DNA of 64,000 bases. Origin: Candidatus Saccharibacteria bacterium CG2_30_41_52 (lineage in GTDB: Bacteria > Patescibacteriota > Saccharimonadia > Saccharimonadales > Saccharimonadaceae). The notes under the pieces were generated by a model that ran no database searches, had not been told where the DNA came from, and saw nothing but the letters and a program-made list of their open reading frames with translations. Where the stretch lies: NCBI GenBank assembly GCA_001873625.1, contig MNZN01000008.1:62001-126000 (forward strand). Reading direction: 5' to 3'. Every line of letters begins with the position of its first letter. The first letter of the stretch is position 1. Shown here piece by piece: positions 2,203-62,031 of this stretch. The position numbers and the translations under genes are program-made.

Positions 2203-2655
2203 ATGGCCAAGTACAACATTGGTGATAGTAGGGTTATTGAATCCCGCGAAGTTAGCGACGGTATCACTATTCGACGTCGCCGCGAATCTCCAGACGGAAA
2301 ACGTTTTACTACTTATGAGCGCGTTGAAAAGCCAAACCTTGCTGTTATTAAAAAGAGCGGCGGCCGAGAATTATTCGATCGCGACAAATTATCAATTGCA
2401 ATCAAACGTTCGGTTGGTAAATTTTTTGCATCCGAAGTTGAAGTCGAAGAGATGATTTCTCAAATCGAAGATGGACTTTATGCGATTGGCGAAAACGAAA
2501 TTACTTCAAAGCAAATTGGCGATAAGGTACTAGACGAATTGGCAAAACGTAACGAAGTTGCGTATGTTCGCTTTGCTAGTGTTTACCATAAATTTAAAAC
2601 CCTGGACGACTTTGTGAAGATACTTGAACAGCGTCTTGGTCAAAAAAACGAGTAG
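2203..2655 (+). CDS. nrdR: NrdR-like transcriptional regulator (ATP-cone) lacking the zinc-ribbon cysteines
   Basis: GDSRVIESREVSDGITIRRRRESPDGKRFTTYERVE plus ATP-cone matches NrdR; no cysteine in the whole ORF. Confidence 0.85.
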   Translation: MAKYNIGDSRVIESREVSDGITIRRRRESPDGKRFTTYERVEKPNLAVIKKSGGRELFDRDKLSIAIKRSVGKFFASEVEVEEMISQIEDGLYAIGENEITSKQIGDKVLDELAKRNEVAYVRFASVYHKFKTLDDFVKILEQRLGQKNE

Positions 2656-2668
2656 AATGGGAGGTGAA

Positions 2669-2929
2669 ATGCGAGTAGTAGTAATTTACAAGGATAACAC
2701 CGACTATACTCGAACCGTGTTGGATTATTTGCATGATTTCGAGCGACAAACCGGCCATGAATTAGAAACTATGGACCCAGATACTGCTGGGGGGACTCAA
2801 TTTTGCGATACGTATGACATTGTGGAATATCCAACTACGGTTGCACTTAGCGATTCTGGCATTTTGCAGAATTCGTGGCGCGGACTACCGTTACCAACTA
2901 TAAGTGAGCTTAGTTATTATGTTCAATAA
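2669..2929 (+). CDS. Thioredoxin-fold protein without CXXC
   Basis: ATG at 2669 preceded by GGAGGTGA; YDIVEYPTTVAL resembles the thioredoxin cis-Pro region; overlaps the VKOR gene. Confidence 0.6.
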   Translation: MRVVVIYKDNTDYTRTVLDYLHDFERQTGHELETMDPDTAGGTQFCDTYDIVEYPTTVALSDSGILQNSWRGLPLPTISELSYYVQ

Positions 2930-3551
2930 ATTAATTAATTATTTTAATTACAAAGAAAAACAACTGCGTAGTAGCCGAATTATATTTACAACTATGCTGA
3001 TTACGTCAGCTTTGGGATTATTGGCGGCATTTGTTTTATCAATCGAGGCAATTGAATTATTGAAAAACCCCAATGCACAATTAAGCTGTAGTATAAATGC
3101 GGTTATCAACTGCGCTACTGTGGCTCAAACCTCGTACTCTTCATTATTGGGATTTCCGAACAGCTTTATTGGAATGATGGTTATGCCAGTGTTCGTTGTG
3201 GTTTCGATAGCAGGTCTTTATGGTGTTAAATTTCCAAGTCAGTTTATGTTTGCCGTACAAATTGTTGCGTTTTCTGCATTACTGTTCGCATTTTATCTAT
3301 TCCATATAAGTATAGTTATTATTCAAGTGCTTTGTCCTTGGTGTTTATTGGTTGATGTAACTACAATTATTATGTTTTTTGCGCTTACCAGATATAACGT
3401 TAGCGTCGATAATTTATATTTGTCGAAAAAATATGTAATTTTGGCGAAAAATTTTATCAAAAAAGATTATGATAAATTTTCAGCAGCTTTGTTGATTGTG
3501 GCTGGTGCCGTGATTATTGTTGCAAAATTTGGTTCAAGTTTGTTCGCATAA
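2919..3551 (+). CDS. Vitamin K epoxide reductase (VKOR) family membrane protein
   Basis: LSCSINAVINCATV and CPWC motifs, multiple TM segments, GFPNSFIGM. Confidence 0.88.
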   Translation: MFNKLINYFNYKEKQLRSSRIIFTTMLITSALGLLAAFVLSIEAIELLKNPNAQLSCSINAVINCATVAQTSYSSLLGFPNSFIGMMVMPVFVVVSIAGLYGVKFPSQFMFAVQIVAFSALLFAFYLFHISIVIIQVLCPWCLLVDVTTIIMFFALTRYNVSVDNLYLSKKYVILAKNFIKKDYDKFSAALLIVAGAVIIVAKFGSSLFA

Positions 3552-3597
3552 TTTTTGTGCCCTTGCATCTATTAATACAGATGATTATAATGATGGA

Positions 3598-3744
3598 GTG
3601 AACATTCTGCGCAAGCAGGTTAGTGGCTATCAACCACGAACGTTCAAACGATAATCGACTCGATAGATCGAAAAACTAAGCGCTAAGAAGAATCTCTTTT
3701 TAGAAACTGGATGGTACCATCCTGTCGTATGACGGGGTTCCAGT
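3598..3744 (+). promoter_or_regulatory. T-box-like tRNA-Ile-sensing leader upstream of ileS
   Basis: ACTGGA(3706-3711)/TCCAGT(3739-3744) helix, 7-nt bulge TGGTACC (3712-3718), second helix ATCCTGTC/GACGGGGT with GTAT loop; upstream hairpin GTGG-CTATCAA-CCAC (3623-3637) carries AUC. Confidence 0.85.
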
Positions 3745-3786
3745 GACTAAATAGGGGTTTTTTGTTATTTTCAGAAAGGAAACAAA

Positions 3787-6651
3787 ATGAAATTTAAATC
3801 AGGCACCAGACGTCGAGCATTAGAATACGAAAAAGACTTAGTTCAGCAATGGAAGAAAAATAAAACATTTGAAAAATCGGTAGCAATGCGACCGGTTGAG
3901 AATTCGTATGTATTTTATGACGGTCCTCCGTTCATTACTGGCGTGCCACATTTTGGTACATTACTTAGTAGCGTCGTCAAAGATGCAATTCCTCGTTATC
4001 AAACAATGAAAGGCAAGCGTGTCGAACGCGTTTGGGGTTGGGATTGTCATGGATTGCCCGCCGAAAACTTCGTCGAGAAAAAACTTGGCATTACTGATCG
4101 ACATGATATTGGCACAAAAATAAGTTTGGCCGAATATATTACGACGGCTCGAGAAAGTATGGTGGCAACCAGTGGACTATGGGAAGACACAATTGATCGA
4201 ATTGGTCGTTGGGTTGATTTTCGCGGTGCTTATAAGACCATGGATAAAGATTACATGGAGTCCGTTTGGTGGGCATTTAAAACATTATACGAAAAAGGCA
4301 AAATTTACGAAGGCGAACGTGTGTTAATGTATGACACCAAATGGGCAACACCACTTTCAAAAGCTGAAGTCACAATGGATGCTGGTGCTTATATTGATGT
4401 TACCGACCCGAGTGTTTATACAAAATTTAAGTTAGTTGGTGAAAATGTTAGTTTGCTAGCATGGACGACAACGCCATGGACATTGCCAGCTAATACCGCG
4501 TTGGCGGTCAATAAAGACACGACGTATGCCGAAATCGAACTCGATGGTGAACATTTTATCTTGGCGAAAGAAACATTAGATCAAGTACTGACTGACGTAA
4601 AACATAATGTTTTGGAATATAAAGTTATTTGTACATTGAAAGGCAAAGACTTAGTTGGCAAATCATACGAGCCCCTATTTGGCGATCGCGGTGCTAATGC
4701 ACACAAAATTTGGTCAGCGGATTATGTTACAACCGAATCGGGTACGGGCATTGTTCACATTGCACCAGCATATGGTGAAGAAGACTTTGCCTTGGCGATG
4801 GAGAATAAGATTCCGGTTGTTCACGTTTTGGACGAATATGGTATTTTTACTGAGACTGAGTGGAAGGGTGCAGACGTATGGGAAATTAATAAAACCATCG
4901 CCAAGACTTTGCATGAAAATGGCTTAGTTTGGAAGATTGATTATATTCGTCACGAATATCCTCACAACCCACGCACTGGTAATCGTTTGATGTATCGCGC
5001 GCATCCAAGTTGGTTTATGGATGTTGATGGTCAACGCACTGATATGTTGTCTGAGAACACGGAACATATTAATTGGTTCCCCGATCACATTAAACATGGT
5101 CGTTTTGAAAAAACTATTGAGACTGCACCTGATTGGAATTTGTCGCGCGATCGTTTTTGGGCGACAGCAATGCCGGTTTGGAAGGGAATTGATAAGGATG
5201 GCAACGATAAAATCAAAGTCATCGGCAGTTATGCTGAACTGAAAGAATTAAGCGGAGTTGAGCTGGAAGATTATCACCGACCATGGGTTGATAATATTAC
5301 TTTTACTATTGACGGAGTTAAATACACTCGCATCGACAAAGTTATGGACTGTTGGTTCGAATCGGGCAGTATGCCATTTGCACAATTTCATTATCCATTT
5401 GAAAACGTCGAGAAATTTGAACAAAATTTCCCTGGCGATTTTATTGTTGAATACGTTGGTCAGGTTCGTGCATGGTTTTACTATGTTCATGCCGTAAACG
5501 TGGGATTGTTTGGTCACAATGCTTACAAAAATGTTATTGTAACCGGTAACGTGGCAGGTAATGACGGCCGAAAAATGAGTAAAAGTTACGGTAACTTTAC
5601 CGATCCAAACGTTTTGATGGATAAATTTAGTGCTGACAGTCTGCGATTCTTGTTGCTTGCAAGCCCACTCCTTAGTGGTGAAGATTTTGCATTGCAGGAC
5701 AAAGAAGTTGGTGACGTAGCCCGAAAACTTTCAATGGTTTGGAACATGTACGACTTTTTCACAATGTATGCCGAAGTCGACAAATGGGAGTTTAAAGGTG
5801 ATTTATCTGATCCAACCGAAGGTCTAACAAATAATTTGGATATTTGGGTAATCAGTCGCCTGCACCAATTGACGGCTGAAATTGAGAAAAATATGGACGT
5901 CTATGACATTCCAAATGCTATGAAGCCAATCTTGCCGTTTATCGAAGACGCCAGTAATTGGTATGTGCGCCGTTCAAGACGCCGTTTTTGGAAGGCAGGT
6001 GATAACACTGACAAAAATAATGCATATCGCACGTTGCACTATGTTTTGGTTCAGTTGGCTCAGGTTTTGGCACCATTTACGCCATTTTTAGCCGAAGAAT
6101 TGTATCAAAAACTTACAGGTGGAGAGAGTGTACATTTGATAGATTGGCCGAAAGTCGGTCATATCGATGAATTGGTTGTTAGTGATATGGAAACCGTACG
6201 TGACTATGTAAACCAAGGTTTAAGTATCCGCGCCAAAGAACATCAAAAAGTTCGTCAGCCACTAGCTAGTGTCACCGTGCCGGCACTAGGAAAATTCGTA
6301 GACTTCGAAGATATTTTGACGGAAGAATTGAACGTTAAATCAGTTAAACTTGGATCTGAATTTGCACTTGATTTGGTAATTACGCCAGAACTGAAGAGCG
6401 AAGGAATTGCCCGCGAAGTGATTCGTTACATCCAAGGCGCCCGCAAAGAAGCTGGGCTGAATATCGAAGATCGAATCAAGTTAGTATTAAAAACTGAGAA
6501 TGCTGAATTAAAACTAGCAATCAGTGATAATGAAAAAACTATTACAGATGAGACTTTGACAACTGAGTTATTAGACAAAGGATCGAATAAATTTGCTACC
6601 GAAGTAAAACTCGATGGTGTCGATTTGACGGTTTCACTTCAAAAAGCGTAA
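3787..6651 (+). CDS. ileS: Isoleucyl-tRNA synthetase
   Basis: GVPHFGTLLS, WGWDCHGLP, GRKMSKSYGN; anticodon-binding domain. Confidence 0.98.
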   Translation: MKFKSGTRRRALEYEKDLVQQWKKNKTFEKSVAMRPVENSYVFYDGPPFITGVPHFGTLLSSVVKDAIPRYQTMKGKRVERVWGWDCHGLPAENFVEKKLGITDRHDIGTKISLAEYITTARESMVATSGLWEDTIDRIGRWVDFRGAYKTMDKDYMESVWWAFKTLYEKGKIYEGERVLMYDTKWATPLSKAEVTMDAGAYIDVTDPSVYTKFKLVGENVSLLAWTTTPWTLPANTALAVNKDTTYAEIELDGEHFILAKETLDQVLTDVKHNVLEYKVICTLKGKDLVGKSYEPLFGDRGANAHKIWSADYVTTESGTGIVHIAPAYGEEDFALAMENKIPVVHVLDEYGIFTETEWKGADVWEINKTIAKTLHENGLVWKIDYIRHEYPHNPRTGNRLMYRAHPSWFMDVDGQRTDMLSENTEHINWFPDHIKHGRFEKTIETAPDWNLSRDRFWATAMPVWKGIDKDGNDKIKVIGSYAELKELSGVELEDYHRPWVDNITFTIDGVKYTRIDKVMDCWFESGSMPFAQFHYPFENVEKFEQNFPGDFIVEYVGQVRAWFYYVHAVNVGLFGHNAYKNVIVTGNVAGNDGRKMSKSYGNFTDPNVLMDKFSADSLRFLLLASPLLSGEDFALQDKEVGDVARKLSMVWNMYDFFTMYAEVDKWEFKGDLSDPTEGLTNNLDIWVISRLHQLTAEIEKNMDVYDIPNAMKPILPFIEDASNWYVRRSRRRFWKAGDNTDKNNAYRTLHYVLVQLAQVLAPFTPFLAEELYQKLTGGESVHLIDWPKVGHIDELVVSDMETVRDYVNQGLSIRAKEHQKVRQPLASVTVPALGKFVDFEDILTEELNVKSVKLGSEFALDLVITPELKSEGIAREVIRYIQGARKEAGLNIEDRIKLVLKTENAELKLAISDNEKTITDETLTTELLDKGSNKFATEVKLDGVDLTVSLQKA

Positions 6652-14512: not shown

Positions 14513-16162
14513 ATGAAGAATCGACATTCTATTGATGGGTTTATTCCCAGACAGCCCGGCGATCAGCTGGGTGGTTTGCAGAACGCTGAAACGCGTACTG
14601 TCTTAAAAGACATGCCTGAAAATAAAGTGCTGCATAACGATGGAGGTGAGACGGTTCGTATGTTGGGCGAAGAGCAATCTGGTCGCGGATTAGGACGTTC
14701 TGACATCGACGAATCTTTGCGTGATATCGATGAAAATGCACAGCCAGCAAAAAAACTCAGTCGCAAACAACGACGACAGATGGCTAATCAGCTTAAAAGG
14801 CCACGATCACTCACTAATAGAATTATCAGATGGTCTATATCAATATTATTGATTATTATTTTGGCTGCTGGTGGATATTCGGCATATAGATTTATTGTTG
14901 TAGGTAATAATATTTTCCAAGGTAATATATTTGATGTATTCAGTAGTGAACCATTAAAACAAGATAGTAATGGGCGAAGTAATTTCTTGATTTTGGGCAC
15001 ATCCGAGGACGATCCGGGGCATCAAGGGGCGGACCTGACCGATTCTATATTAGTTCTAAGTGTTGATCAGAAAAATAAAAATTCTTATATGTTTAGCGTA
15101 CCGCGCGATATGGAAGTTAAATACGATAGGCCATGCGTTCCTGGATATTCTGGCAAAATTAACGCATTTTTTAGTTGTGTAAATATCGAAGAAACCAAAG
15201 AGGCCGAACAAGATCGACTGGCGAAAACACAAAAATTAATTGGCGATATTTTTGGAATTGATATTCAATACGGTATTCATGTCAATTACACTGTTATGCG
15301 TGACGTTGTAAACGCTATTGGTGGTAATATTACGGTTACAATCGAAAGCCGAGATCCAAATGGTCAGATGGATAGTAACTTCGATTGGAAATGTGGCGGA
15401 AATTATTATGAGCGTTTTAAAAATTGTCCTCCTAACGGTCATTTTATTGATTATCCAAATGGGCTAATTACGTTGGACGCCGAACACGCGCTATACCTAG
15501 CGCAAGCGCGCGGTGATATATCGCCAACTTATGGATTTGAAAAATCAAATTTTGATCGAGAGAAAAATCAACAGAAAATTTTGGTTGCAATCCGTGACAA
15601 AGCAATGAGTTCGGGTACATTAACGAACCTCGGTGCTATATCTCGATTAATTGATGCGCTGGGTGATAATTTGCGAACTAATATCAAGACAAACGAGATC
15701 CGTACTCTTATACAAGTTGCAGGCGAAATAAAATCAGATGATATACACGACATAAGTTTGATTGATGGCGACAATCCAGTCATGAACGGAACAGGTAATC
15801 CATCGGCTGGTAAATATGAATATGATGACATTCGAGCATTAATAAAAAAGAATCTTTCTAGTAATCCGATAATAAGCGAAGCCGCACCAGTTGTAGTATT
15901 GAATGGTTCAGGTCAATCTGGGTTTGGTCAGACAAAGGCTGATGAATTAGCAGGATTGGGATATAACGTTGTGCTGGTAAGTAATGCGCCAGATGGCAAT
16001 TATGGCAAGGTTGAAATCTATCAAATTGGTGGTGGTAACACAGGAACAGCTGATAAATTATCTGCCATGTATGGTGGTGTGGTTATCAAGAAATCTACTC
16101 CACCGACTACTGTAAATGGCGATGTACGATTTGTTATTATATTTGGAGTTGTCACTGAATAG
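14513..16162 (+). CDS. LytR-CpsA-Psr (LCP) family protein with C-terminal LytR_C domain
   Basis: SILVLSVDQKNKNSYMFSVPRDMEV, LDAEHALYLAQARGD, C-terminal VVVLNGSGQSGFGQTKADELAGLGYNV. Confidence 0.92.
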   Translation: MKNRHSIDGFIPRQPGDQLGGLQNAETRTVLKDMPENKVLHNDGGETVRMLGEEQSGRGLGRSDIDESLRDIDENAQPAKKLSRKQRRQMANQLKRPRSLTNRIIRWSISILLIIILAAGGYSAYRFIVVGNNIFQGNIFDVFSSEPLKQDSNGRSNFLILGTSEDDPGHQGADLTDSILVLSVDQKNKNSYMFSVPRDMEVKYDRPCVPGYSGKINAFFSCVNIEETKEAEQDRLAKTQKLIGDIFGIDIQYGIHVNYTVMRDVVNAIGGNITVTIESRDPNGQMDSNFDWKCGGNYYERFKNCPPNGHFIDYPNGLITLDAEHALYLAQARGDISPTYGFEKSNFDREKNQQKILVAIRDKAMSSGTLTNLGAISRLIDALGDNLRTNIKTNEIRTLIQVAGEIKSDDIHDISLIDGDNPVMNGTGNPSAGKYEYDDIRALIKKNLSSNPIISEAAPVVVLNGSGQSGFGQTKADELAGLGYNVVLVSNAPDGNYGKVEIYQIGGGNTGTADKLSAMYGGVVIKKSTPPTTVNGDVRFVIIFGVVTE

Positions 16163-60996: not shown

Positions 60997-62031
60997 ATGG
61001 ATAAATTATTAACTGAACTGACTCGTGAACTTACCGGAACTTTCCTGTTGAGCTTAGGGGCATTCTTGCTTGCTATGTTATTTACGCCAATTTATACATT
61101 TCTTGCTTATAGATATAAATTTTGGAAAAAACAACGTACGACTAGTACGACTGGTGAAAAGCTGCAAATTTTTAACAAATTGCATGCCGACAAATTCAAA
61201 CGCAATATTCCAACCATGGCTGGAGTTATATTCGTGCTGGCGATTGCGATTATGACGTTGGCGTTTAATATGAACAGGGGGCAGACATGGTTGCCGCTAG
61301 CTGCTTTGGTTGGTGGTGCTTTTGTTGGGCTACTAGATGATATTATTAACGTTCGCGGCAATGGTAACGGAGTTGCTGGACTACGTTCAAGTTTGAAATT
61401 TATTATGATTTTAACTATTGGATTAGCACTTGGTTGGTTTTTCTTTACGAAACTTGGGCTTACATCTGTCCATGTTCCATTTTTGAATGATTACATTTTG
61501 GGTTGGTTGATTATCCCTTTGTTTGCGTTTGTAGTTGTAGCTACAAGTAATGCTGTTAACATTAGTGACGGACTTGATGGCCTAGCTGGCGGATTACTGT
61601 CAATTAGCTATGGTGCTTTTGGCACAATTGCTTTATTCCAATCACAAACTTTTTTGGCTGGTTTTTGTTTTACTGTAGTTGGAGCGTTACTCAGTTATCT
61701 ATGGTTTAATATTTATCCTGCTCGTTTTTTTATGGGCGATGTTGGTAGCTTCGCGCTCGGAACTTCGCTCGGTGTTGTGGCGATGCTAACTAATACATTG
61801 TTTTTGCTACCGATTATTGGAATAGTCTTTGTCGCCGAAGCTGGATCTAGTTTAATTCAAATCTTAAGCAAGCGCATATTCAAACGTAAGATATTTATTT
61901 CAGCGCCATTTCATCAACACTTGCAGGCTACCGGTTGGCCTGAAACAAAAGTTACTATGCGTTTTTGGGTTATTGGATACGTTATGGCATTTATAGGTGT
62001 ATTTCTGGCCCTGGCTGGGGGAAATATCTAA
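60997..62031 (+). CDS. mraY: Phospho-N-acetylmuramoyl-pentapeptide transferase
   Basis: PTMAGVIFVLAI, GLLDDIINV, NAVNISDGLDGLAGG, FMGDVGSFALG, APFHQHLQATGWPETKV. Confidence 0.96.
   Translation: MDKLLTELTRELTGTFLLSLGAFLLAMLFTPIYTFLAYRYKFWKKQRTTSTTGEKLQIFNKLHADKFKRNIPTMAGVIFVLAIAIMTLAFNMNRGQTWLPLAALVGGAFVGLLDDIINVRGNGNGVAGLRSSLKFIMILTIGLALGWFFFTKLGLTSVHVPFLNDYILGWLIIPLFAFVVVATSNAVNISDGLDGLAGGLLSISYGAFGTIALFQSQTFLAGFCFTVVGALLSYLWFNIYPARFFMGDVGSFALGTSLGVVAMLTNTLFLLPIIGIVFVAEAGSSLIQILSKRIFKRKIFISAPFHQHLQATGWPETKVTMRFWVIGYVMAFIGVFLALAGGNI

Follow-up and report, generated by a model that had tools for sequence, protein, structure and literature searches.

T-boxes were taken to combine a long Stem I, which grips the elbow of the tRNA, with control of transcription, and an ultrashort Stem I with control of translation. 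Saccharibacteria are epibionts, and very few regulators are known from them. In canonical transcriptional T-boxes (RF00230, Bacillus subtilis type), the long Stem I carries its specifier in a side bulge and ends in an elbow-binding tip (IDTM), and the terminator is formed with the 3' strand of the antiterminator helices A1 and A2 (PMC7583486). The ileS T-boxes with an ultrashort Stem I described from Actinobacteria, e.g. Nocardia farcinica and Mycobacterium tuberculosis (TBDB class II), are translational. Their short Stem I domain barely binds tRNA without Stem II (PMC7583486), and Stem II and the IIA/B pseudoknot are both important for tRNA binding (PMC7583486, PMC10651847). The T-box database applied its class II model to Actinobacteria and to those class I hits whose Stem I is truncated (PMC7778990). 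In the open-access literature searched, we found no paper that connects Saccharibacteria, Patescibacteria or the Candidate Phyla Radiation with T-boxes.

The window analyzed here is the whole stretch of 64,000 nt at positions 62,001 to 126,000 (forward strand) of contig MNZN01000008.1, from Candidatus Saccharibacteria bacterium CG2_30_41_52 of the class Saccharimonadia (GCA_001873625.1). All features below are given in window positions and lie on the plus strand. Upstream of ileS, which encodes an isoleucine--tRNA ligase of 954 amino acids (3787-6651; TIGR00392, 783 bits over cut-off), a leader of some 166 nt (about 3598-3763) comprises an aptamer, a discriminator and a terminator. Judged by sequence and covariation, this element is a T-box. 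It very probably senses uncharged tRNA-Ile, and we hold with high confidence that it is a tRNA-Ile-sensing riboswitch acting by transcription attenuation. A preliminary description of the locus had proposed an unannotated T-box leader with ileS as its target, which is borne out by a covariance model match, by the AUC specifier and by the match to tRNA-Ile(GAU), all detailed below. The helices, bulge and loops that it quoted are all present in the sequence at the positions it gave, and the helices are included in the MFE fold of the leader (z = -2.8 against shuffles). Of the extent it gave, 3598-3744, the start stands, while the element continues beyond the end to about 3763; likewise, the T-box, the specifier and the short Stem I were rightly recognized, while Stem III, the IIA/B pseudoknot, the loss of Stem II and the alternative terminator were overlooked.

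The transcript is predicted to start, probably, near 3598, i.e. where the T-box begins, from a probable promoter with a -35-like TTGCAT (3563-3568), a 17-nt spacer and a -10 box TATAAT (3586-3591). Immediately 5' of the element, 34 out of 77 class leaders have such a pair, with TTG 16-18 nt ahead of a TATAAT-like box, compared with 2% of shuffles. A promoter and terminator scan gave no match on the plus strand, and hence listed neither an ileS promoter nor an ileS terminator; the promoter was missed because TTGCAT agrees with TTGACA at only three of six positions, and the terminator because its loop exceeds the 8-nt limit of the scan. Directly upstream of the promoter, nrdR and a VKOR-family gene occupy 2203-3551.

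The same element is carried by the upstream sequences of ileS from related genomes. Two covariance models were built: R1, from 22 leaders, and R2, from 19 leaders of other genomes, which excludes the window and the relatives that likewise lack Stem II in order to avoid circularity. The sole match of R2 in the 64-kb window was the ileS leader (135.4 bits, E 2.4e-34). R1 found one copy of the ileS element in the genome itself (144 bits), and matched in 263 out of 393 Saccharimonadia genomes, distributed over 120 of 153 genera, with the homologous leaders situated upstream of ileS. Covariation across related ileS leaders, a check put forward in the preliminary description, proved strong: in a MAFFT alignment, 90% of the cells in the helices of the ON structure were paired and 25 pairs had changes on both sides, with pairing falling to 46% once the partners were slid by one column. 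The other check named there, a search with the Rfam T-box model, came out negative, since no T-box was found at the gathering threshold anywhere in the window, and the leader region gave no match even at E<=10. None of 147 Saccharimonadia genomes passed the RF00230 cut-off, and in a phylum-wide set it was passed by 8 of 240; at E<=0.01, 41 of the 147 class genomes matched, often at the R1 locus. Such sub-threshold matches in relatives align with RF00230 feature by feature (e.g. L028, E 1.5e-4, and L024, E 0.0078). The failure of RF00230 is a detection limit of a model dominated by the long Stem I, and no structural criterion; the covariance models used here retrieve leaders that Rfam misses. 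In one close relative (L005/L094, CAIPOF010000065.1), the upstream flank of ileS was without a T-box match.

Stem I (3600-3645 in the MFE fold) is short, about 46 nt without distal loops. It consists of a basal helix (GAAC 3600-3603/GUUC 3642-3645), a helper hairpin inserted at the base (CUGC-GCAA-GCAG, 3607-3618) and a specifier hairpin (3619-3641), in which GTGG (3623-3626) and CCAC (3634-3637) enclose the loop CTATCAA (3627-3633). Within this loop, CUAUCAA in the RNA, the specifier AUC (3629-3631) is followed by the purine A. AUC occurs in 101 out of 101 parsed leaders, in keeping with the earlier proposal, which placed this specifier in an apical loop of 7 nt on an ultrashort Stem I, and the UAUCA of the loop is complementary to nt 33-37 of tRNA-Ile(GAU). 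The specifier stem is paired in 95% of cells, with compensatory changes; the basal helix shows weak covariation, and MAFFT misaligns that region. The helper hairpin has GA-rich flanks, with GA before the stem in 43 and after it in 55 of 76 leaders, which suggests a kink-turn at the insertion. That the helper hairpin compensates for the lost Stem II is speculation.

Stem I is followed by the Stem IIA/B pseudoknot (3649-3671), with IIA formed by CGA 3649-3651/UCG 3660-3662 and IIB by UCGA 3655-3658/UCGA 3668-3671; these are paired in 91% and 97% of cells, respectively, with double changes. Stem II itself (the S-turn), retained in most of the class, is absent from the window copy, whose deletions in the R2 alignment coincide exactly with the positions of Stem II. 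Judged by spacing, it is also absent in four relatives (L003, L004/L092, L091 and L156), and the IleS tree indicates that it was lost at least once, perhaps twice. Another ileS T-box (L018:1291-1482) has kept Stem II and is missing the IIA/B pseudoknot. These natural deletions of Stem II and of the pseudoknot are unexpected, because both modules matter in actinobacterial ileS T-boxes, where they are reported to be essential in vitro. A palindrome, GGATGGTACCATCC, was considered as an alternative hairpin and rejected, as it is lost in those relatives that have CAGATGGTACCGTCC instead.

The discriminator begins with the purine string and Stem III (3678-3705), i.e. AAGCG (3678-3682), CUAAGAAGA (3683-3691), the loop AUC (3692-3694), UCUUUUUAG (3695-3703) and AA (3704-3705), in agreement with the T-box purine-string motif RRRxG-Stem III-AA (PMC7583486). 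AAG[CTA]G precedes Stem III in at least 58 of 76 leaders, and Stem III is paired in 99% of cells, with compensatory changes. Next comes the antiterminator, with A1 (ACTGGA 3706-3711/TCCAGT 3739-3744; 100% of cells paired, four pairs with double changes), the 7-nt bulge UGGUACC between A1 and A2 (3712-3718; consensus UGGNACC), and A2 (ATCCTGTC 3719-3726/GACGGGGT 3731-3738, loop GTAT 3727-3730; 96% of cells paired), compensatory changes being found in both helices. The genome encodes a tRNA-Ile(GAU) ending in A73-CCA, which is complementary to the UGGU of the bulge, just as anticipated from an A discriminator base. The A2 pair that closes on the bulge is A3719-U3738 in the window, versus G-U in 17 of 22 relatives, with the U kept. 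A G-U wobble closing A2 has been described as an aminoacyl sensor, and is not required for assignment to the family. In the ileS T-box of one relative (L091, same as L002; CAIUKF010000006.1, between 2190 and 2501), an 84-amino-acid ORF lies within the apical loop of A2. It weakly resembles GIY-YIG intron endonucleases (E 3e-6 with TIGR01453, under the cut-off of that model), and in the relative L092 A2 is long and lacks the ORF.

The OFF state is predicted to contain an intrinsic terminator (3691-3763), in which AAUCUCUUUUUAG (3691-3703) pairs with CUAAAUAGGGGUU (3747-3759), followed by UUUUUU (3758-3763). As AAUCUCUUUUUAG consists of the loop and the 3' strand of Stem III, the terminator helix and Stem III are mutually exclusive; the antiterminator hairpin A1/A2 is nested inside the terminator helix and is compatible with both states. 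This helix is paired in 93% of cells, with 37 double-change cells, and the signal is lost when the strands are slid; a run of at least five U downstream of A1 occurs in 68 of 76 leaders. The base of the window terminator is AU-rich, with one U-U mismatch. The preliminary description saw no convincing GC-rich terminator before the T-run at 3758; a conserved terminator helix, AU-rich and spanning the whole antiterminator, does end at this run. With energies calculated without pseudoknot or tRNA, the OFF fold of the window (-52.6 kcal/mol) lies 6.5 kcal/mol below the ON fold (-46.1 kcal/mol), which fits what a T-box that is off by default requires.

In the proposed mechanism, the apical AUC would pair with the GAU anticodon of tRNA-Ile, and the ACCA 3' end of this tRNA, when uncharged, would pair with UGGU in the bulge. 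Uncharged tRNA-Ile would lock the discriminator, i.e. Stem III together with A1/A2, and the locked Stem III would withhold UCUUUUUAG from the terminator, so that RNA polymerase reads into ileS. Charged tRNA-Ile would be unable to hold the discriminator; the strand CUAAAUAGGGGUU could then invade Stem III from its loop, giving rise to the terminator, which encloses the antiterminator hairpin and is completed by six U. The antiterminator needs Stem III to bind tRNA (PMC7583486), and since it cannot bind alone, invasion of Stem III would also abolish sensing.

Three other readings of the leader were weighed. The preliminary description favored translational control, in which, as in the actinobacterial kind, the OFF fold would sequester the Shine-Dalgarno sequence of ileS (AAAGGA, 3775-3780). 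Most of the T-boxes so far known to have an ultrashort Stem I act on translation (PMC7583486), and UUCC of A1 can indeed pair with GGAA of the Shine-Dalgarno region, although the GTTCC and GGAAAC given there are not exact complements and the pairing is not maintained in relatives. One relative with an ileS T-box (L007/L095, CAIOSL010000081.1) has moreover lost the U-tract terminator while its discriminator is intact, and possibly has another output. In a duplex test across leaders, however, Shine-Dalgarno pairing was no better between a leader's own strands than between swapped ones (-4.5 versus -4.4 kcal/mol), and no co-variation was seen; it is instead the helix with the U-tract that co-evolves. 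The Shine-Dalgarno sequence lies outside both the ON and the OFF fold, the conserved downstream strand is situated upstream of it with a U-run at its end, and where an extra gene stands between leader and ileS, the terminator and U-run are retained in front of that different first gene. We consider translational control highly unlikely here. A transcriptional T-box with a canonical terminator, formed from the 3' strand of A1/A2, would match the described mechanism (PMC7583486). Leaders in front of valS in other Patescibacteria resemble this type, and the window sequence would allow the pairing GUUCC/GGGGU. Such a local hairpin is also present in a few basal relatives (L120 and L150), where it is of about the same stability as the alternative. 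Against this, the local hairpin has a median energy of only -3.1 kcal/mol, versus -15.2 kcal/mol for the Stem III terminator, and in the duplex test its helix gained little from the leader's own strand (-4.5 versus -3.6 kcal/mol swapped), compared with -15.2 versus -8.0 kcal/mol for the Stem III region and the downstream strand. This makes the canonical terminator very improbable, and the least probable of the readings. The same comparison identifies the Stem III helix as the co-evolving OFF helix, and thus the OFF structure as a terminator built on Stem III; transcription attenuation is accordingly strongly indicated as the output mode, as far as sequences can tell. In the ileS leaders L120, L150 and L160 there is hardly any Stem III, and one strand could take part either in a local terminator of the A1/A2 type or in an enclosing one; these are possible evolutionary intermediates.

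It is also conceivable that the window copy is decaying, i.e. that with Stem II lost it no longer senses tRNA and works as a constitutive attenuator. Stem II is missing in the window and four relatives, in the ileS T-boxes of Actinobacteria it is important for binding of the tRNA (PMC10651847), and the end pair of A2 is A-U in the window. In the Stem II-less relatives, however, specifier, bulge, pseudoknot, Stem III and terminator are intact, with the exception of L091 with its ORF in A2, and in L156 Stem III and the terminator have changed in concert. Decay is therefore an unlikely explanation, and a functional tRNA-Ile-sensing attenuator is preferred.

Compared by description, the leader has in common with actinobacterial class II the ileS target, a short Stem I that presents the specifier in its apical loop, the IIA/B pseudoknot, Stem III, the UGGN discriminator and the lack of an elbow-binding module. 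The S-turn Stem II is shared with class II by most of the Saccharibacterial relatives, but not by the window copy. Unlike class II, the Saccharibacterial leader has a U-tract terminator in place of Shine-Dalgarno sequestration, and its Stem I carries an additional hairpin at the base. The discriminator architecture, purine string, IIA/B pseudoknot and control by termination are common to canonical transcriptional T-boxes, from which the leader differs by its short Stem I with an apical specifier and by a terminator that draws on Stem III and not on the A1/A2 3' strand. An ultrashort Stem I would here be coupled to a terminator throughout one bacterial class, against the usual pairing of Stem I length and mode of control. 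Epibiont bacteria would thereby gain control by tRNA charging, and the leader could serve as a minimal system for work on tRNA sensing.

Lastly, R1 matches in other Patescibacteria precede ileS (specifier AUC), valS (GUC), thrS (ACC) and nondiscriminating aspS (AAC or GAC). Gene and specifier were assigned independently, and their agreement is strong evidence for the apical loop as the specifier. The genome itself has a second T-box outside the window, upstream of thrS (L224; G000:C4, motif at 15717), with ACC in a 9-nt apical loop, a bulge UGGA that matches the genome's tRNA-Thr ending in UCCA, and a long perfect terminator, ACAUGCGAU/AUCGCAUGU. We think it rather probable that these leaders form a distinct and widespread class of transcriptional T-boxes with a short Stem I in Patescibacteria, that the ileS branch of Saccharimonadia is switched by displacement of Stem III with the antiterminator hairpin persisting in both states, and that the window member senses tRNA as a complete device that has neither Stem II nor an elbow-binding module. 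In the case of the nondiscriminating aspS, four leaders (L208, L209, L210 and L218) have a specifier for either Asn (AAC) or Asp (GAC), which suggests that different lineages may sense different products of one enzyme.
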